From Syntrophaceae bacterium (GTDB lineage: Bacteria; Desulfobacterota; Syntrophia; Syntrophales; UBA2210), in assembly GCA_030619435.1 (NCBI GenBank), contig JAUXBI010000021.1, positions 1 through 12,081 on the forward strand: a DNA stretch of 12,081 nt, given 5' to 3'. Both the position numbers and the translations under genes were made by a program. Position 1 is the first letter of the stretch. The number at the start of each line of letters is the position of its first letter. The notes beneath the pieces were generated by a model. It was given only the letters and a program-made list of their open reading frames with translations. It ran no database searches and was not told the DNA's origin. Shown here one piece after another: positions 3,671 through 11,927 of this stretch.

Positions 3671-3712
3671 TCGAAACTCTAAACCCGAATCCCGAAACTC
3701 AAGACTTAAACT
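3671..3712. repeat. Six tandem 7-base units (consensus YCGAAAC) overlapping the RND stop codon
   Basis: On the plus strand six consecutive heptamers follow a degenerate YCGAAAC pattern: the first unit is TCGAAAC, the fourth CCGAAAC, and the others differ at one to four positions. The last two units cover the TGA stop (3699-3701) and the final codons of the RND pump gene. Such degenerate heptamer tracts are known between genes in some bacteria, for example the STRR sequences of cyanobacteria. Whether these are related is not known. Confidence 0.6.
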
Positions 3713-6700
3713 TTTCAGAGAATTTGAGAATGTCTTCAAGGATGAGGTAGAGGCTCGGGATTAGGAGTAGCGTAATGAATGTCGCAAAGAGCACCCCGTA
3801 GCCGAGGCTTACCGCCATAGGTATCAGGAATTTGGCCTGCAGGCTTCTTTCCAGGATCATGGGCGTCAATCCCGCGAAGGTAGTCAGGGATGTAAGGATG
3901 ATTGCCCTGAAACGCAAGGTTCCTGCCTGTACGATTGCATCGTGCGCGTCAGCGCCCTGCCGACGGAGCCGGTTTGTCGCATATATCAGCACCAGAGAAT
4001 CGTTGACAACGACACCTGCCAGGCCCACGATCCCGAAGAGGCTGATGAAGGTGATATCGAGTCCCATAATGAGGTGTCCCCCGACAGCGCCGACGATGCC
4101 GAACGGGATCGCCATCATAACTACAAAAGGTTGTGTGAATGACCTGAAGGGAATGGCCAGAAGCGCGTAGATGCCGAAGATGGCAAACAAAAAGCCCAGC
4201 TTGATATCGTCAAGAGATTCGCGCTGTTCCCTGCCTTCTCCTTCCATCGAGTATCGCAGGCCGGGGTAAAGGTACTTAAGATCCTGAAGGAACCCTTTTT
4301 CAAGAGTTTGTCGCACTTCATTGGCATTGGTAACGGATTCATCCACATCGGCATAGACTTTGATGACGCGTTTTCTCTGACTATGTTCAATGGAAACATA
4401 GCCCTGTTCCATTGTTACGTCGGCCAACAGACTGAGGGGAACCTCCAGACCATCGGCAGTGCGAATGCGCATTTTTTCCACATACCCTAGTGACTCTCTC
4501 TCCTGTTCGGGGTAGCGCACCATGACCTTGACCTCGTCCTTTCCCCGCTGTATTCGGAGGGCTTCGGCGCCGTAGAAGGCGTGTCGCACCTGCGTGGCGA
4601 TATCGCTGAGGGTCAGTCCCAGACTCCGGGCGGTCGGTTTCAGATTGAGTTGCATCTCCTTTTTACCCGGCATGAAGCTGTCACTGATATCGTATACGCC
4701 GGGGTAGCTCTGCAGCTCCTCTTTCAGTTGCTCGGCGGCAGTCAGCAGGTTTTCATGATCGTCTAATGACAGGTGGATCTCAACCGATTTTCCCGCGCTG
4801 TGCAGGACGCTCTTAAAGGTCATTGATTCAATACCCGGGATCGTACCCGCGTTTTTACGCCAGAGTGCCGCAAGTCGGGCAGTGCTTACTTTTCGCTTTT
4901 CTCCTTCCAATACCTGGACCCAGATATAGGCAAGATGTCCTCCCGAATCGCTGAGCATTCCGCGATTTCCCACTTGCGCCCCGAGCAGGGCGAAACTGTA
5001 TTGGAAAAGAGGAGGAGAACCTTCAGGGGCTTCTTTGTCTGCGTTTGCCATGGTTTCCCGTGCAACCTCTTCCAGGTAACCGACCACTTCGGTAGTGCGC
5101 TCCAGAGGCGTCCCCGCAGGCATTGTTAGCGAACATTCCAGCATGTCGCTTTCCACCTTTGGGAAAAACGTAAATTCAATTAGTCCGCCCCGGAATGTTC
5201 CCACAATTATAAGTAGCAGGGCAATGCCCAGCGCCACGGTGGCATACCGCCACCTTACACAGAATTTTACCGCTTTCAGATATGGACCGTTAATGAATGC
5301 CCGCATCCATTGTGCCATCCGTTTTTCTTTCTTTGGACCGGAGTCCTGTCTATGTCCGGCAGGTTTGCTTCTTGACAGGTGGCACGGCAGGATCAAGAGC
5401 GACTCAATTAGTGATCCAAGCAGGACGACAATGATCACGATCGGTATGCTGCGCATCATTTTTCCCATCATACCGGTTGCCATCAGAAGCGGCGCGAAAG
5501 CCACCATGGTGGTGAGAACGGAGAAAATAACCGGCCGGCCTACTTCAGTGGTGCCCTGAATTGCCCCGTTCAAGGGAGACAACCCCTTTTCCTGTTTTTG
5601 AAATATGTTTTCCCCGACAATAATGGCGTCGTCAACCACGATGCCAAGGACCATAATGAATGCAAAAAGGGAGATCATGTTGATGGTTACATCCAGGTAT
5701 GGCAGTGTGGCCAGCCCCGCCAGAAAGGATATGGGGATCCCGAGTGTTATCCAGAATGAGAGTTTGATGTTAAGAAAGGCTCCGAGGATCAGAATCACCA
5801 GAACAAGGCCGATAGCCATATTTTTCAACAGGAGATTGAGGCGGCTGTGCAGAATTTCCGACATGTCGGCAAAGAAGGCGATACCGACACCTTCGGGTAG
5901 TGAAGGCCTGACATCAGTGATATATTGTTTTACTTTTCCGGCAACGTCGAGGGCACTCTGGTCGGCCACCCGATAAACCTGGATCATGGCTGCTGTTTTG
6001 TCCTGGAAGCGCGCGAAAAGATCGACATCTTCAAACCCGTCACGAAGGGAGGCAATTTGTCCGAGAATTACTTTGCTGCCGTCGGCGCGTGTAATGACGG
6101 CGATATCGGTAAATTCGTCTGCGTAGTACAACCGCCCTTTTGTGCGGATAAGTATCTCGCCACCTTTCGCTTTAACGCTTCCCGCGGGAAGGTCGAGACT
6201 TGCCTTCCTGACGGCATCGGCCACCTTCCCCAGGGTTAGACCATAGCTACGCAATGTCTCCTCGGAGATTTCAATATGGATTTCCCCATTACGGATACCC
6301 AGGATGTCGGCTGAAGTGACGCCCGGCAGACTGGTGATGTCGTCTTTGATCTTTTCGGCAAGATGTTTGATTGTTGCTTCCGGGACATCTCCATAAATGC
6401 CAACGCTGATTACCTGCACACGCTGGGTTACCTCTTGGACAATGGGCTTTTCCGCTTCGTCCGGGAATGTGGTAATGCGGTCGACCTCGGCCTTAACCTC
6501 ATCCAGAAGTGTTTTAATGTTCCACCCCTTGATAATTTCTACTGTAACGGTACCGATGCCTTCTTTTGCCGTGGAATCGATGCGCCTAATACCGGATAAT
6601 CCGGCCAGTCGTTCCTCTATACGGAGGATGATTGCCTCTTCCACCTCGGCAGGGGAAGCGCCCGGATAACTGGTAATTACAGAGATCCTATCCAGAGAGG

Positions 6701-6821
6701 TCTCAGGGAACACCTCCAGCTTTATTGTGTATAGTGTGAAAATTCCGGCCAGAACCAGAAATATCATAAGCAGATTTGCCGCGACGTGATTTTCAGCAAA
6801 CCAGGAAACAACTTTTTTCAT
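3699..6821 (-). CDS. RND-family inner-membrane multidrug/solute efflux pump
   Basis: This is the proton-driven inner-membrane pump of a tripartite efflux system. Its 1040 residues match the usual RND length. It has the expected duplicated layout: TM1 (about 12-32), a large periplasmic loop, TM2-6 (about 332-480), TM7 (about 527-545), a second periplasmic loop, and TM8-12 (about 874-1030). TM4 carries the family Asp pair in VLGIVVDDAIIVGEN (D397/D398). TM10 reads GVVVNDSLVL, so N940-D941 stands where AcrB has Lys940-Asn941. The start was set at ATG 6821, which lies 6 bases after an AAAAGGA site and 2 bases past the stop of the upstream fusion-protein gene. A TTG at 6827 abuts that site and is unlikely. 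Substrates cannot be read from the sequence. The sequence is unlike AcrB-type HAE1 in TM10 and could belong to a less-studied RND branch. Confidence 0.95.
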   Translation of the reverse strand: MKKVVSWFAENHVAANLLMIFLVLAGIFTLYTIKLEVFPETSLDRISVITSYPGASPAEVEEAIILRIEERLAGLSGIRRIDSTAKEGIGTVTVEIIKGWNIKTLLDEVKAEVDRITTFPDEAEKPIVQEVTQRVQVISVGIYGDVPEATIKHLAEKIKDDITSLPGVTSADILGIRNGEIHIEISEETLRSYGLTLGKVADAVRKASLDLPAGSVKAKGGEILIRTKGRLYYADEFTDIAVITRADGSKVILGQIASLRDGFEDVDLFARFQDKTAAMIQVYRVADQSALDVAGKVKQYITDVRPSLPEGVGIAFFADMSEILHSRLNLLLKNMAIGLVLVILILGAFLNIKLSFWITLGIPISFLAGLATLPYLDVTINMISLFAFIMVLGIVVDDAIIVGENIFQKQEKGLSPLNGAIQGTTEVGRPVIFSVLTTMVAFAPLLMATGMMGKMMRSIPIVIIVVLLGSLIESLLILPCHLSRSKPAGHRQDSGPKKEKRMAQWMRAFINGPYLKAVKFCVRWRYATVALGIALLLIIVGTFRGGLIEFTFFPKVESDMLECSLTMPAGTPLERTTEVVGYLEEVARETMANADKEAPEGSPPLFQYSFALLGAQVGNRGMLSDSGGHLAYIWVQVLEGEKRKVSTARLAALWRKNAGTIPGIESMTFKSVLHSAGKSVEIHLSLDDHENLLTAAEQLKEELQSYPGVYDISDSFMPGKKEMQLNLKPTARSLGLTLSDIATQVRHAFYGAEALRIQRGKDEVKVMVRYPEQERESLGYVEKMRIRTADGLEVPLSLLADVTMEQGYVSIEHSQRKRVIKVYADVDESVTNANEVRQTLEKGFLQDLKYLYPGLRYSMEGEGREQRESLDDIKLGFLFAIFGIYALLAIPFRSFTQPFVVMMAIPFGIVGAVGGHLIMGLDITFISLFGIVGLAGVVVNDSLVLIYATNRLRRQGADAHDAIVQAGTLRFRAIILTSLTTFAGLTPMILERSLQAKFLIPMAVSLGYGVLFATFITLLLIPSLYLILEDILKFSEKFKS

Positions 6822-6823
6822 GG

Positions 6824-7999
6824 TCAATCCTTTTCCGCTACTCTCCGTACAGTCATGCCGTCTGTGGCGGCCTTAAGGGGGGAGAAAACAACCAGTTCAC
6901 CATCTCTGAGGCCGGATTCGATAACGATTTCTTCACCCTGATAAAGGGCGACCCTGACCGTTCTAAAACTCAGTACGCCTTGATCATTCACTGTCCACAC
7001 GATATTTTCCTGGCGGAGGGCCGCCCGGGGAATGACGGCGGCATCCGGTAGAACCCGTCCCATAATGTCAACCGTTACAAAAAGGCCGATCGCAAGGGGC
7101 GGGTTTGTCGCGTATGGTTTGTCAATCCGGACAATGACGGTTATCATTCGGGTTCTTTCATCCAGTTCGCCTTCAGCGCGGACCACTCTTCCCGAAAAGA
7201 CCAGTTTATGCCCTGCAATTTCGGCGTGCACTGTGGCAGGTGACCCGCTCCTGTCACCCGGCGTGAATCCGGGGACGTCAAACCAGAAGAGATCTTTGTC
7301 TTCCAAGTGCAGGGCGATCTGGGCCACTTCAGTAGAGAAGAGTCTTGCCAGGGGCTGTCCCGGTGCCACATATTGACCGATATCAACAGATTTTCTGCTG
7401 ACGCGGCCATTAAAGGGTGCCTTCAAAACTGTTCTTTCAAGGTTCAGGGAGGCCTTTTTCAGATTAGCCCGATCAGCGTCAAGGCTGGCGCGAGCTGCTG
7501 CCAACTGTGGCTCCTTGGCTACAAGTGGTGGAATCTTTTTCCCGGCATGGGAAATGTCTGAGTAGTGAGCCCGCCATTCTTCCCTTGCCACCAGCGCTTC
7601 TTCCTGAATAATTTTCAGGTTACTTTCAGAATTTCTTACCTTTGCCTTTGCCAGCGTAACAGCCAGTTCATAATCAATCGGGTTTATTGAAAGCAATGGA
7701 TCACCCTTGCTGAACTTGCCGCCATTGACCAGGGAGGGAGATGTATGGACGATTTTGCCGCCAACCTGTGTAACAAGATCGATTTCCTTCAGCGGGCGTA
7801 CCGTTCCCTCGCCCCTGATAATTATCGGTTTCGGTCCTGTTTTGATCTTGATCACTTGAACCATGGGCGCAGGAGCGGAGGGTTTTATCTTCTGCAGTTC
7901 AGGGCTACTCGCTGTCAGTGCGATCATAACGATTACCCCCGTGATAACGAGTGCTGTACTTAGGGTGATATGGATAATAGTTTTTCTTTTTAGGCTCAT
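6824..7999 (-). CDS. Efflux RND periplasmic adaptor (membrane-fusion protein)
   Basis: This periplasmic adaptor joins the RND pump to the outer-membrane channel. Its 391 residues show an N-terminal membrane anchor (about 8-30, no lipobox), then the first lipoyl half (about 63-105, with VGGKIVHTSPSLVNGGKFSKGDPLL). An alpha-helical hairpin rich in Ala, Lys and Glu follows (about 108-190). The second lipoyl half (LKAPFNGRVSRKSVDIGQYV, 192-211), a beta-barrel (about 225-315) and a C-terminal membrane-proximal domain complete it. The hairpin is of moderate length, in keeping with an HlyD/AcrA-type adaptor. The ATG at 7999 has AAGGA 7 bases upstream. The gene ends 2 bases before the pump's ATG, which suggests translational coupling. 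It lies between the channel and pump genes. Confidence 0.95.
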   Translation of the reverse strand: MSLKRKTIIHITLSTALVITGVIVMIALTASSPELQKIKPSAPAPMVQVIKIKTGPKPIIIRGEGTVRPLKEIDLVTQVGGKIVHTSPSLVNGGKFSKGDPLLSINPIDYELAVTLAKAKVRNSESNLKIIQEEALVAREEWRAHYSDISHAGKKIPPLVAKEPQLAAARASLDADRANLKKASLNLERTVLKAPFNGRVSRKSVDIGQYVAPGQPLARLFSTEVAQIALHLEDKDLFWFDVPGFTPGDRSGSPATVHAEIAGHKLVFSGRVVRAEGELDERTRMITVIVRIDKPYATNPPLAIGLFVTVDIMGRVLPDAAVIPRAALRQENIVWTVNDQGVLSFRTVRVALYQGEEIVIESGLRDGELVVFSPLKAATDGMTVRRVAEKD

Positions 8000-8034
8000 T
8001 GTTTTTTCCTTGGAAGATATTAGGTGTCAGTTAT

Positions 8035-8047
8035 CAGCCATTGGCTG
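8035..8047. repeat. Short perfect palindrome in the 89-base OMF-adaptor gap
   Basis: CAGCCA and TGGCTG flank a single central T. The palindrome lies between the stop of the outer-membrane gene (8089) and the start of the adaptor gene (7999). It is too short and has too tight a loop to be a good RNA hairpin, and nothing else stands out in this gap. No internal promoter was recognised here, so the four efflux genes are probably one transcript. Confidence 0.4.
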
Positions 8048-8088
8048 TCTGTCTTGTTGCATTCAATTTCACGTTCCCCCGGTTTTTC

Positions 8089-9483
8089 TCACTCCGGTCC
8101 GCCCCATCCGCCTCCCAGTGCGCGGTGCAATGTTACGCGATTGCTGAGAATGGCCAGTTCCACCAGAACCAGACTTTCTTCGGCCTGAAAGCGGGCACGC
8201 TGGGAGTCAAGCACTGTGAGGTAGTCGACCAGCCCCCGTTCATAGCGATTTTCGGCCACCTTTTGCGTGGACCGCGCTTCGTTGAGAAAATCAAGCATTT
8301 TTTCTCTTCTTTCCATCTGTTCCTTTCGTGTCAGAAGGGCGCTTTCCACCTCGGAAAAAGCGGTAAGGACAGCTTTGGCATAGTCAGCCATTCCCTGTTG
8401 AAACTGCGCCTCTGCGGCGCGTTGCCCGGCCTTGAGTCTACTTGCGTCAAAAATAGGCTGAAGTGCTCCGAAGGCTATGTTCCACAGGCTGCTTCCCGGC
8501 ATAAAGAGTAGATCCAGCTCGCTGCTCGAATAGCCGAAGGCTCCCGTCAGTGTTATTCTCGGGAAGCGACTGGCCTTGGCGACACCTATTTTTGCGTTAA
8601 GCGCCCGCAGGGCCGCTTCGGCCGCCCTGATATCAGGTCTGCGTAAGAGGAGGTCGGAAGGCAGTCCCGATGGCACGAGAGAGGGAAGCTTGAAATAGTC
8701 TTCCGGTTGGATCCGTGCCGATCGTGTTTCCGGATATTGTCCTGAAAGTACAGCCAGTTTTTGCTGCTTGATGCCGATCTCCTGCCTCAGCGAGGGAAGG
8801 ATGGCCTCTGCCTGGGCAAGGACGCGTTTTGCCTGTTTCAGGTCAAGGATGGAGGTCAGTCCTCCTTCATATCGTCGCTCTATAAATGAAAGGTTGCGGC
8901 GGTAATTTTCTATGCTCTGAGCTGTTATCTGAATCCTGCGCTCCAGGGATTCTATCTGAAAATATAATGTTATCGCTTCCGATACGATGGTCTGGGCAAT
9001 AATGCGGGCATTCTCCTCCGTTTTTGCGAGGTTTGCCAGGGCGGCTTCCTCGGCACGGGTCAGACGGCCCCAGAGATCGATTTCAAATGATGCCGGCAGA
9101 GAAAGGTTATATACGTCCGATTCGATTCCCGGGAGAATACGGTGTCGTCGCACCTCACCCTGCAGGCTGAGGCTGGGGAAACGATCCGCCCTGGATTGGA
9201 CAAAATAAGCCCGCATCTCGGAGATCACAGCCAGCGCTTTTCTGATATCCAAGTTACCCGACAATACATTTCCCGCAAGCTGATTCAACTCGGGATCGTT
9301 GAAAGCGGCCCACCACCGGTCGGTAATCTTTCCCGTTTCAACATCAGATGGAGCATGCTGATACGATTCCCTGATCTGTGAACTCATGTCGGGTTTTTTG
9401 AAGTCGGGGCCTACCTTCATGCATCCCGTAAAGAGCACAAAAGCAGAGATGGTTATGAGCATGGGCACTGTCCTGTGCTTCAC
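8089..9483 (-). CDS. NodT-type outer-membrane efflux lipoprotein (TolC-like channel)
   Basis: This is the outer-membrane factor that forms the exit duct of the efflux system. Its 464 residues are normal for the NodT/OprM group. The signal peptide ends FTG-C21, followed by MKVGPDFKKPDM, which matches the family's typical lipidated start (GC..VGPD..P). The -3 residue Phe is not ideal for a lipobox, but the context is convincing. Two outer-membrane efflux repeats follow (about 60-255 and 270-460), with the family-typical LPSLVPSGLPSDLLLRRPDIRAAE stretch between them (visible around 270-293). The start is GTG at 9483, placed by an AAAGGAGG site 7 bases upstream inside the tetR gene. The GTG shares the bases GTGA with the tetR stop, so the two are translationally coupled. 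Confidence 0.94.
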   Translation of the reverse strand: MKHRTVPMLITISAFVLFTGCMKVGPDFKKPDMSSQIRESYQHAPSDVETGKITDRWWAAFNDPELNQLAGNVLSGNLDIRKALAVISEMRAYFVQSRADRFPSLSLQGEVRRHRILPGIESDVYNLSLPASFEIDLWGRLTRAEEAALANLAKTEENARIIAQTIVSEAITLYFQIESLERRIQITAQSIENYRRNLSFIERRYEGGLTSILDLKQAKRVLAQAEAILPSLRQEIGIKQQKLAVLSGQYPETRSARIQPEDYFKLPSLVPSGLPSDLLLRRPDIRAAEAALRALNAKIGVAKASRFPRITLTGAFGYSSSELDLLFMPGSSLWNIAFGALQPIFDASRLKAGQRAAEAQFQQGMADYAKAVLTAFSEVESALLTRKEQMERREKMLDFLNEARSTQKVAENRYERGLVDYLTVLDSQRARFQAEESLVLVELAILSNRVTLHRALGGGWGGPE

Positions 9484-10127
9484 CTGGCATCCTCCTTTAC
9501 GGGCAGACCGGAGAGAGAAAAATCGACAATGTGTTGAACCAGCCTGTCTTTGAACGGCTGGTCATAGGCATGCCCGATAATTTTCGATACCGGTAATCTG
9601 GCAAAATTGAAATAGAGAACCATCGAAAAAATGCTCAGAATGTTAAGGAGCGTGCGCTCTTCATCGATGCTCTCATGCAGATAAGGTTGAAGTAATTGTC
9701 CCAACCCTTCGAAGGAAGGCTTCATGGTCTCTTCCAGCACTATTTCAAAGGCCTCTGTCGGTTTGATTATCTCCCGGGTCATCAACTGAAAATGGAACAG
9801 GCGCTCTTTGTCCGTAAGGGGACCTTTGATGAGGGCTTCAGCCAGGGATTGGATCACAGACGCGGGCGATGTGTCGTCGCAGCCGGTAAGGTTTTCCTCG
9901 AAACATGCACGAATGCGCTGTGCCCTGGATACCCAGCGTTCGCGGAACACATTCAGATACAGGGTTTTTTTATTGCCGAAGTGGTAGTTTACAGCGGCAA
10001 GGTTGCACCCTGCTGCTGTTGTAATTTTCCGCACACTTACCGCATCGTAGCCTTTTTGAGCAAACAGCGTTTCGGCGACTTCCAACAGACGATCCCGGGT
10101 TGTTTTGCTTCCGTTGTCCGGAGACAT
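9480..10127 (-). CDS. TetR-family transcriptional repressor of the efflux operon
   Basis: This is a DNA-binding regulator of about 215 residues. The N-terminal TetR domain includes TRDRLLEVAETLFAQKGYD, and its helix-turn-helix spans about 32-51, ending in AAVNYHFGNKKTLY. The 'NLAAVNYHFG' wording is typical of the CerR/YbiH-like branch with its own C-terminal ligand domain. The rest is alpha-helical and variable, as expected for an effector-binding region; the ligand cannot be inferred. The start was set at ATG 10127, which has AAAGGA 9 bases upstream (10137-10142). The longer frame back to TTG 10184 would start inside the -35 element and upstream of transcription, so it is rejected. First gene of the efflux operon; its stop overlaps the next start. 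Confidence 0.93.
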   Translation of the reverse strand: MSPDNGSKTTRDRLLEVAETLFAQKGYDAVSVRKITTAAGCNLAAVNYHFGNKKTLYLNVFRERWVSRAQRIRACFEENLTGCDDTSPASVIQSLAEALIKGPLTDKERLFHFQLMTREIIKPTEAFEIVLEETMKPSFEGLGQLLQPYLHESIDEERTLLNILSIFSMVLYFNFARLPVSKIIGHAYDQPFKDRLVQHIVDFSLSGLPVKEDAR

Positions 10128-10155
10128 AGCGTACATTCCTTTCATGTGGAAAACA

Positions 10156-10184
10156 CGTATATCAAACGAACGTTTGATTGTCAA
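10156..10184 (-). promoter_or_regulatory. Promoter of the tetR-efflux operon
   Basis: On the minus strand a perfect TTGACA (10179-10184) lies 17 bases from TATACG (10156-10161, four of six matches). Directly upstream is an A-rich run (A7 at about 10187-10193, then A-tracts up to about 10240) resembling an UP element. Transcription should start near 10149, leaving a leader of about 22 bases before the tetR ATG. Confidence 0.75.
10161..10178. promoter_or_regulatory. TetR operator inside the promoter spacer
   Basis: ATCAAACG and CGTTTGAT form a perfect 8-base inverted repeat around a central AA. The palindrome covers the entire 17-base spacer between -35 and -10 plus the first -10 base. A bound TetR dimer would block RNA polymerase, so self-repression of the operon, relieved by an efflux substrate, is the simple reading. 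That the neighbouring TetR binds it is inferred from position and symmetry. Confidence 0.8.
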
Positions 10185-10583: not shown

Positions 10584-11927
10584 CTAATACAATATACCAA
10601 TGAACACGCCACCTGCAATCGCCGCGCCTATGGCACCGGCGACATTAGGTCCCATGGCATGCATCAGGAGAAAGTTCTGCCTGTTTTCCTTTTGACCCAA
10701 AACCTGTACAACCCTTGCGGACATGGGAACAGCAGACACACCGGCTGCGCCTATCATGGGATTTATCTTTTCCTTCAGGAAAAGATTCATGAACTTCGCG
10801 AGGAGCACGCCTGCCGCTGCCGCACTGGCAAAAGCTACGACGCCGAGGACCATTATCAGCAGGGTCGAGGACTGCAGAAAGTTCTGGGCCGGCATTGATG
10901 CACCAATGGAAAGTGTCAGGAATATGGTTATGATATCAACAAAGGTTGTCTGCGATGTCTTGTTGAGTCTTTCGGTAACGCCGGATTCCCTGAAGAGATT
11001 TCCAACCATGAAACATCCGATAAGCGGAGCGGAAGAGGGTACCATCAATATGACAATAATGGTCGTAACCAGGGGAAATACAATCTTCTCCAGCTTTGAC
11101 ACCTTTCTGAGTGACGGTTTCATGTATATCTGGCGTTCCTTCTTCGTGGTAAGAAGGTATATCACCGGAGGCAGAATAATGGGTACAAGCGCCATATAAG
11201 AGTAACACGCGACAGCGGTGGCGCCTATAATGTGTGGGGCGAGCAGGGAAGTAACATATATGGTGGTGGGCCCCTCAGCACCACCTATTATCCCTATGGA
11301 CGATGCCTCCGGAAAAGTAAACCCGACCATCAAAGCCATGAAGAATGCCAGATAAACGCCGAATTGCGCGGCAGCGCCAAGGAGCAGAGTTTTGGGATTG
11401 GCAAGCATAGGCCCAAAATCCGTAAGCGCTCCCAGGCAAAGAAACATGAGAGGAGGCAGCATCTGCCACATAATTCCATACTGGAAAATTCTGGAAAGCA
11501 ATCCTATAGGTCTTGTGGGCAGCACCGACTGATCGGTTTGTTCCATTGTTATAAACTTACCTATAACATCCCCCTTGTTAATATGCTGACCCTTGGATAC
11601 CTTCAGAGTGTCAACCCTCCCGAAGACAGGGGCTGCTATTTCCCCCGAATCAAGTTTGCATATCACTCCGCCCTTGCTGAAAGAATCTCCATCCTGCATC
11701 TGCACTTCCATTACAATGCCTGCCTGCGGGGCTCTCAGCACCATTTCATAGTCCATTATGCCTCCAAGAGGCAGATTGACCAACATTATGCCGAACCCTA
11801 TGGGTATCAGCAAAAGAGGTTCCATATCTTTGGAAATTGCCAGATAAATGAATACCAGGCCTATAACAATCATAAGGGCATTGCCCCAGTAGAACAGGCC
11901 GAAGCCACTCTCAAGTAATCCGAACAT
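10584..11927 (-). CDS. Na+-translocating decarboxylase beta subunit (OadB/GcdB/MmdB family) with inserted swivel-like domain
   Basis: Proteins of this family are the membrane Na+ pump of biotin-dependent decarboxylases (oxaloacetate, glutaconyl-CoA or methylmalonyl-CoA). Carboxybiotin is decarboxylated and Na+ is exported. Family marks in order: TM1 (about 13-32), EPLLLIPIGFG (36-46), GALTDFGPMLANPKTLLLGAAAQFG (166-190), GIIGGAEGPTTIY (212-224), YSYMALVP (242-249), INPMIGAAGVSAVPMSARV (388-406) and LLMHAMGPNVAG (420-431). Relative to Klebsiella OadB, the Tyr229, Asn373, Gly377 and Ser382 equivalents are kept (Y244, N389, G393, S398), but Asp203 is Glu218. Residues about 62-128 form an inserted barrel resembling a biotinyl/lipoyl domain without its lysine. 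The ATG at 11927 has GGAGG 7 bases upstream. The 154 bases ahead hold no gene or promoter I can support. Partner alpha/carrier subunits are not in the window and may lie to the right. The substrate is undetermined. Confidence 0.93.
   Translation of the reverse strand: MFGLLESGFGLFYWGNALMIVIGLVFIYLAISKDMEPLLLIPIGFGIMLVNLPLGGIMDYEMVLRAPQAGIVMEVQMQDGDSFSKGGVICKLDSGEIAAPVFGRVDTLKVSKGQHINKGDVIGKFITMEQTDQSVLPTRPIGLLSRIFQYGIMWQMLPPLMFLCLGALTDFGPMLANPKTLLLGAAAQFGVYLAFFMALMVGFTFPEASSIGIIGGAEGPTTIYVTSLLAPHIIGATAVACYSYMALVPIILPPVIYLLTTKKERQIYMKPSLRKVSKLEKIVFPLVTTIIVILMVPSSAPLIGCFMVGNLFRESGVTERLNKTSQTTFVDIITIFLTLSIGASMPAQNFLQSSTLLIMVLGVVAFASAAAAGVLLAKFMNLFLKEKINPMIGAAGVSAVPMSARVVQVLGQKENRQNFLLMHAMGPNVAGAIGAAIAGGVFIGILY

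Follow-up and report, generated by a model that had tools for sequence, protein, structure and literature searches.

A biotin-carrier-like barrel lacking the biotin lysine, inserted in the beta subunit of an ion pump driven by biotin-dependent decarboxylation, in a clade with an altered ion site

The window, by which we mean the whole stretch of 12,081 nucleotides analysed here, is contig C207 of a draft Syntrophaceae genome, whose 247 contigs total 1.61 Mb at a completeness of 80.6%. An oadB-type gene lies at its right end, and the contig stops 154 bp upstream of this gene.

10584..11927, minus strand: oadB/mmdB-type gene encoding the barrel-bearing beta subunit (447 aa) of an ion pump driven by biotin-dependent decarboxylation

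OAD_beta proteins are the membrane subunits of oxaloacetate, methylmalonyl-CoA, and glutaconyl-CoA decarboxylases, where they decarboxylate carboxybiotin and move ions. In profile searches, the 447-aa protein matched OAD_beta over nearly its full length (PF03977, 492.2 bits, cut-off 31.6), and of the 25 NCBIfam models listed the general TIGR01109 alone scored over its cut-off (478.8 bits, cut-off 190.6). AlphaFold2 modelled the whole protein with a pLDDT of 88.7, and its membrane fold is that of OAD_beta, including the two re-entrant hairpins. A profile search of the host genome returned one OAD_beta match, the window's oadB, and three Carboxyl_trans matches. No stand-alone gene for the biotin carrier BCCP was found in the assembly using PF00364, the single match sitting in a 651-residue open frame; because relatives carry BCCP near oadB, the BCCP gene of this genome could lie past the contig end. 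After oadB, on the same strand (3699-10184), are genes for a TetR/CecR-type regulator, an outer-membrane factor, an adaptor, and an RND pump; judged by gene lengths, this order is apparently kept in loci L002 and L003, and not in several more distant barrel loci.

The initial annotation of this DNA proposed that a biotinyl/lipoyl-like domain without the biotin lysine is inserted between membrane segments II and III of the beta subunit, and the profile, structure, and alignment analyses bear this out in all three respects.

11547..11750, minus strand: barrel-sandwich (BCCP-like) domain, residues 60-127, occupying the slot that domain E fills in StOAD and predicted to be extracytoplasmic (by Pfam, AlphaFold2, VIA-align, and HHalign)
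11640..11657, minus strand: shortened biotinyl hairpin KLDSGE, residues 91-96, four residues less than AMKMEN in the alignment to BCCPs and with no lysine at the biotin position

Residues 55-135 by themselves scored over the Pfam cut-offs of both Biotin_lipoyl_2 and Biotin_lipoyl. The isolated domain was modelled by AlphaFold2 as a barrel-sandwich fold with a pLDDT of 95.5, and VIA-align superposed the model on Pyrococcus horikoshi BCCP (5gua) with an rmsd of 0.8 A over 67 residues. The two-half sequence pattern of BCCPs is present in the barrel, and HHalign against a profile of 18 BCCPs, of which 15 are encoded at barrel loci and 3 elsewhere, gave a probability of 99.1 and an E value of 5e-19, with the alignment broken only at the biotinyl hairpin, where the barrel is four residues short.

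A scan for related loci revealed the insertion at the identical place in 28 of the best 80 of 501 loci, a count that favours barrel proteins since two of the six patterns used lie in or next to the barrel. Alignment A1 comprised the window protein, the proteins of these 28 loci, and 40 of the 52 that lack the barrel. Four loci with in-frame stops in their matched stretch (L041, L046, L048, and L054; joined tblastn segments) were left out; all four read GGADGPT and, being unaligned, do not count among the barrel-free proteins below. Eight further loci were also left out (L033, L035, L038, L049, L052, L070, L077, and L081), and these have Asp at position 203 and Thr at position 419. The comparisons below use 38 barrel proteins (29 + 5 + 4; 18 of the 23 barrel loci in the second set lie on contigs already in A1, and L137 and L138, among the four added last, are nearly identical) and 69 proteins without barrel, namely 48, 20 that we chose from the matches listed for spread and odd lengths rather than at random, and a second beta subunit in genome G683. 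This last protein (L130:7397-8632) is a divergent OAD_beta of 412 aa with Asp at position 203, encoded 1.4 kb from the barrel-type gene and adjoining an ISL3 transposase. In L060, L066, and L076, the slot between T2 and T3' holds another short, unrelated-looking insert, which suggests that inserts of more than one kind are tolerated at this outer position.

In a tree of the 69 A1 proteins with the insertion columns removed, the 29 barrel proteins formed one clade (stem support 79.9/91). The labels of the 28 barrel records are Syntrophales, Syntrophobacterales, Syntrophaceae, Smithella, Deltaproteobacteria, Dehalococcoidia, Chloroflexi, and one Desulfobacterales. In the rooted tree, Dehalococcoidia-labelled proteins branch first, with Deltaproteobacteria-type labels nested, which suggests, if the labels of these MAG records are taken as given, a transfer. 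In a survey at E<=1e-12, the barrel profile matched 23 of 155 genomes from the order to which the window belongs, 22 of them with a barrel beta subunit; the match in G682 lies in a 78-residue frame only, and its fetched locus has no OAD_beta match. The profile further matched 1/294 genomes in the class sample of G012 (G012 itself), 1/60 relatives of G023 (G023 itself), and 5/81 relatives of G022, and OAD_beta overall was present in 164 of the 297 genomes of the phylum sample. The initial annotation had left it open whether this architecture was already described. NCBIfam, judged by the 25 models listed, gives no subfamily for a barrel-type beta subunit, and PMC titles and abstract beginnings described neither a beta-subunit barrel nor a clade with Asp203 exchanged for Glu, an absence that weighs little with subscription papers mostly outside that scope.

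Conservation within the insert is uneven and is highest in two short stretches.

11616..11630, minus strand: PVFGR, residues 100-104, with P100, G103, and R104 invariant in 38/38 of the barrel alignment
11502..11549, minus strand: conserved linker T..QT.Q...PT.P, residues 127-142, leading from the barrel to T3', with T127, Q130, T131, P140, and G142 in 38/38

Across the 38 barrel proteins, mean entropy was 1.04 in the linker, 1.47 in the second half of the barrel, and 2.01 in the first half, against 0.48 in the membrane core, which is thus much better conserved than the barrel. Counting letters present, residues 57-142 include 11 invariant positions, three in the barrel (Pro100, Gly103, and Arg104, the only ones in residues 60-126) and eight in the flanks and linker. 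Stronger conservation of the second half is what packing of this face against the pump would predict. No lysine hairpin occurs in any alignment row of the 28 barrel loci, and in residues 93-98 of the 38 proteins the lone lysine is at position 98, in L019. The stub of the hairpin (residues 93-97, entropy 1.27, with D93 in 36/38) is no less conserved than the rest of the barrel, which leaves room for some role of the stub at the former biotinyl hairpin, as far as sequence conservation can indicate.

The barrel clade also differs from its relatives at the ion site.

11274..11276, minus strand: E218, at the tip of hairpin H1, aligned with the essential Asp203 of the Na+ site; Glu in 37/38 barrel proteins, Asp in 69/69 without barrel
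10623..10625, minus strand: A435, aligned with StOAD Ser419, for which a hydrogen bond to the H1 tip is reported; Ala in 38/38 barrel proteins, Ser or Thr in 69/69 without barrel

In the first set, the Asp203 position is Glu in 28 of 29 barrel proteins and Ala in L013, and the Ser419 position is Ala in all 29, with Asp and Thr/Ser in 48/48 proteins without barrel; three gaps in the Ser419 column of A1, where L016, L025, and L029 end early, read Ala in another alignment. The nine further barrel proteins all have Glu and Ala. The window protein has S382 and N412 alongside its Glu, a conservative swap that runs through the clade. With a separating position defined as at least 90% in one group and at most 5% in the other, the core positions M153, E218, V225, I233, C241, C305, T338, A435, I437, and G439 distinguish the groups, several of them on H1, T5, or T10 by secondary structure; at 439, Ala has become Gly in the barrel group. 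The protein of L013 (L013:8001-9338) has Ala at both the Asp203 and Ser382 positions (GGAAGPT and GVAAVP) and thus lacks both Na+ ligands of the first site, and in L023 Ser382 alone is missing. D203A is reported to abolish Na+ binding in the Salmonella enzyme, and according to the accessible text of PMC7274780, Asp203 substitutions severely disrupt Klebsiella OAD and S419A by itself costs 90% of its activity. With Asp203 exchanged in a natural clade, whether these pumps couple to Na+ or to H+ can be tested directly. Because the changes sit in one clade, the barrel and the altered ion site may simply have been inherited together, with no functional connection.

The side of the membrane on which the barrel lies was deduced from the first two helices.

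11832..11888, minus strand: T1, residues 14-32, an AlphaFold2 helix predicted to run from outside to inside (OAD_beta listed as N-out in the accessible part of PMC8396727)
11775..11819, minus strand: T2, residues 37-51, an AlphaFold2 helix predicted to run from inside to outside, with E36 (= StOAD Glu40) at the T1-T2 turn (Glu40 cytoplasmic in the accessible part of PMC7274780)

A comparative study of the CPA superfamily gives OAD_beta as 10H-2RH-Nout (PMC8396727, the part available). The Salmonella beta-gamma structure, in the available text, has Glu40, Thr148, and Asp149 on the cytoplasmic face and a periplasm-open cavity lined by T3', T3, and T8 (PMC7274780). By sequence, the turn between T1 and T2 contains Glu40 and the final part of T3 contains Thr148/Asp149, and the Glu40 equivalent is Glu in 69/69 proteins of A1. 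Either the N-out listing or the cytoplasmic-face residues imply that T2 ends outside, and hence that the T2-T3' slot is outside; domain E of Salmonella OadB, which fills this slot, would likewise be outside. Loop charges agree, as counted with barrel and linker set aside and with loop limits that we drew on the AlphaFold2 model. In the 29 barrel proteins, mean K+R was 1.9 (T1-T2), 1.0 (T3-T4), 6.2 (T5-T6), 2.2 (T7-T8), 2.0 (T9-H2), and 3.1 (H2-T10) in the predicted inside loops, and 0.00 in the N terminus, T2-barrel, T4-H1, T6-T7, and C terminus and 0.07 in T8-T9 on the predicted outside. Net charge is less clear-cut, with two inside loops near zero (T3-T4 +0.03, T7-T8 +0.24), and in the 40 proteins without barrel the outside loops T6-T7 and T8-T9 had K+R of 0.50 and 0.65. 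The initial annotation had placed this loop on the cytoplasmic side, which the N-out listing, the Salmonella structure, and the loop charges contradict. Homologue, helix parity, and charge together argue strongly for a barrel outside the cytoplasm, and a cytosolic cofactor-carrier fold has apparently been re-used outside the membrane. Biotin ligase and carboxybiotin are cytosolic, and the loss of the hairpin fits such a predicted location.

Carboxyltransferase, BCCP, and delta genes, the set that goes with OAD_beta, are absent from the window, whose contig ends so close upstream of oadB, and were seen in relatives. All 28 barrel loci have an OadG/delta-like open reading frame of 42–54 aa upstream of oadB (mini-delta; for example L002:7625-7756), with one hydrophobic stretch by eye, which scarcely reaches the OadG models (at E<=0.01, TIGR01195 matched 13/28 and NF040909 3/28). 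The mini-delta profile also matched 43/52 loci without barrel (E<1e-4), and we therefore rejected the barrel as compensation for a shortened delta. A BCCP of about 70–75 residues (start chosen by us) with an intact [AS]MKM was present in the fetched flank of 15/28 barrel loci, and a carboxyltransferase in that of 10/28; some flanks are short, and 10 of the 13 barrel loci without BCCP have a flank of more than 10 kb. The carboxyltransferases of L005 and L008 are mmdA-like, under the model cut-off, and those of L025 and L028 are of a longer, more distant kind, which from their length we take to be GcdA-like. In L132, from a genome of the window's genus, BCCP, mini-delta, beta, and carboxyltransferase genes stand in a row. 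The BCCP and carboxyltransferase genes of L025 have a neighbour resembling glutaryl-CoA dehydrogenase (NF045552, 738.6 bits, cut-off 470), which at this locus points to glutaconyl-CoA as the substrate.

These results are best explained together, and we hold this reading with moderate confidence, by a membrane-embedded beta subunit belonging to an ion-pumping, biotin-dependent acyl-CoA decarboxylase of the methylmalonyl-/glutaconyl-CoA decarboxylase type; in a single clade, this subunit would have acquired a domain of BCCP descent as an outer structural cap or scaffold on a pump with a re-tuned ion site. The decarboxylation cycle would be the ordinary cytosolic one: the carboxyltransferase would transfer the carboxyl group to biotin on a separate, mobile BCCP of about 70–75 aa, the BCCP would bring carboxybiotin to beta at its inner face, and this subunit would decarboxylate it and move ions, with mini-delta anchoring the complex. 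The barrel without its hairpin would fill the variable outward slot T2-T3' as part of a static scaffold outside, and there keep the beta trimer together or define the external opening of the ion path, and the cap may belong with the re-tuned site, in which Asp became Glu with smaller T10 neighbours. The cap role is suggested by analogy with the position of domain E, which in Salmonella reaches the trimer interface through its helix E4 (PMC7274780). An extension to which we give a low probability is a distinct pump class, in records labelled Syntrophales/Deltaproteobacteria, Dehalococcoidia, and one Desulfobacterales, in which the Glu/Ala site and retired barrels forming a three-fold exit cap would set ion selectivity or coupling, possibly with proton pumping; if true, a proton-pumping decarboxylase would suit syntrophs living near thermodynamic equilibrium.

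Other readings were weighed against the structural cap. The barrel could bind an extracytoplasmic partner such as wall, lipid, or a periplasmic protein, in the way that efflux-adaptor lipoyl domains assemble in the periplasm, rather than serving the pump trimer; we consider this unlikely, given that clustering of open reading frames from the 28 loci found only beta, carboxyltransferase, and BCCP families common to at least nine loci, and that the barrel occurs under both Dehalococcoidia and Syntrophales labels, groups whose envelopes differ. A change of coupling ion (e.g. H+ replacing or alongside Na+), with the barrel as part of it, would account for the exchanges at 203, 419, and 439, and only one of 24 readable c subunits, surveyed in barrel genomes alone (30 loci fetched from matches in 22 genomes), had Gln plus ESTGIY, which we take to be the Na+-type pattern. 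This proposal is nevertheless doubtful, as Asn412 is retained in 29/29 and Ser382 in 27/29 barrel proteins, and Glu can also bind Na+. The c subunit with Gln plus ESTGIY, in G023, adjoins a 492-aa open frame (G023:C496:2040-3443) with six tandem PF00137 (ATP-synthase c-subunit) matches. Syntrophus aciditrophicus, a member of the Syntrophales, has a glutaconyl-CoA decarboxylase named among proton-translocating enzymes, by name and without measurement in the accessible part of PMC4992975.

A barrel without any role is rather improbable. It would descend from a fragment of the adjacent BCCP gene that was copied into an ancestral oadB and tolerated there, as would befit a slot that is variable or empty in relatives, a domain much more variable than the membrane part, and a BCCP gene that ends 14 nt before oadB in L024, L027, and L029; against this, a barrel-size insert is retained in 38/38 proteins, with the invariant positions described above, mostly in flanks and linker. 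The role proposed in the initial annotation, a cytoplasmic docking or gating module for the carboxybiotin carrier or a substitute for the gamma/delta contact, is probably wrong and in our estimate highly improbable: the fold, the separate carrier, and D93 of the stub are in its favour, but an outside slot, as indicated by the N-out topology (PMC7274780 and PMC8396727, available parts) and the loop charges, means that docking from the cytoplasm would require another topology, and a mini-delta in each of the 28 barrel loci, its profile also matching most loci without barrel, speaks against a substitute. The domain identity, lysine loss, and II-III position in the initial annotation stand, and its functional proposal is not supported.

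The structural cap that we favour can be set beside several known systems. Periplasmic adaptors of the RND, HlyD, and MacA type (PF13533, TIGR01730) share with the barrel an unmodified lipoyl/barrel-sandwich fold on the outer side, and the barrel matches adaptor profiles (TIGR01730 under its cut-off) and adaptor structures; it differs in belonging to a transporter subunit and in lacking a coiled-coil hairpin at the tip. In the AlphaFold2 model, neither an MFP-type coiled-coil hairpin nor adjacent beta-barrel domains were found around the barrel, which is flanked directly by T2 and the T3' linker. That the RND adaptor gene lying 2.6 kb off in the window (6824-7999, itself barrel-bearing) was the donor appears improbable and was rejected, as several Dehalococcoidia-labelled barrel loci neighbour RecA/RecX and other genes and the HHalign match of the 65-residue domain to BCCPs is strong. 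Mini-delta weakly matches the OadG/delta family (including OadG_rel_small, NF040909), and is too short for the carboxyltransferase-binding C-terminal tail of Salmonella OadG, residues 61-84 of which bind alpha (PMC7274780, accessible text). The BCCPs (PF00364; P. horikoshi 5gua/2ejf) resemble the barrel in fold and two-half pattern, whereas the barrel has the four-residue hairpin deletion, no lysine, and a place inside a membrane protein, predicted to be outside the cytoplasm. Finally, in Salmonella OadB (6iva/6iww; OadB/MmdB/GcdB, PF03977, TIGR01109), domain E is helical, where the window's clade has the barrel instead, and beta subunits of the window's type have Glu in place of Asp203 and Ala in place of Ser419.
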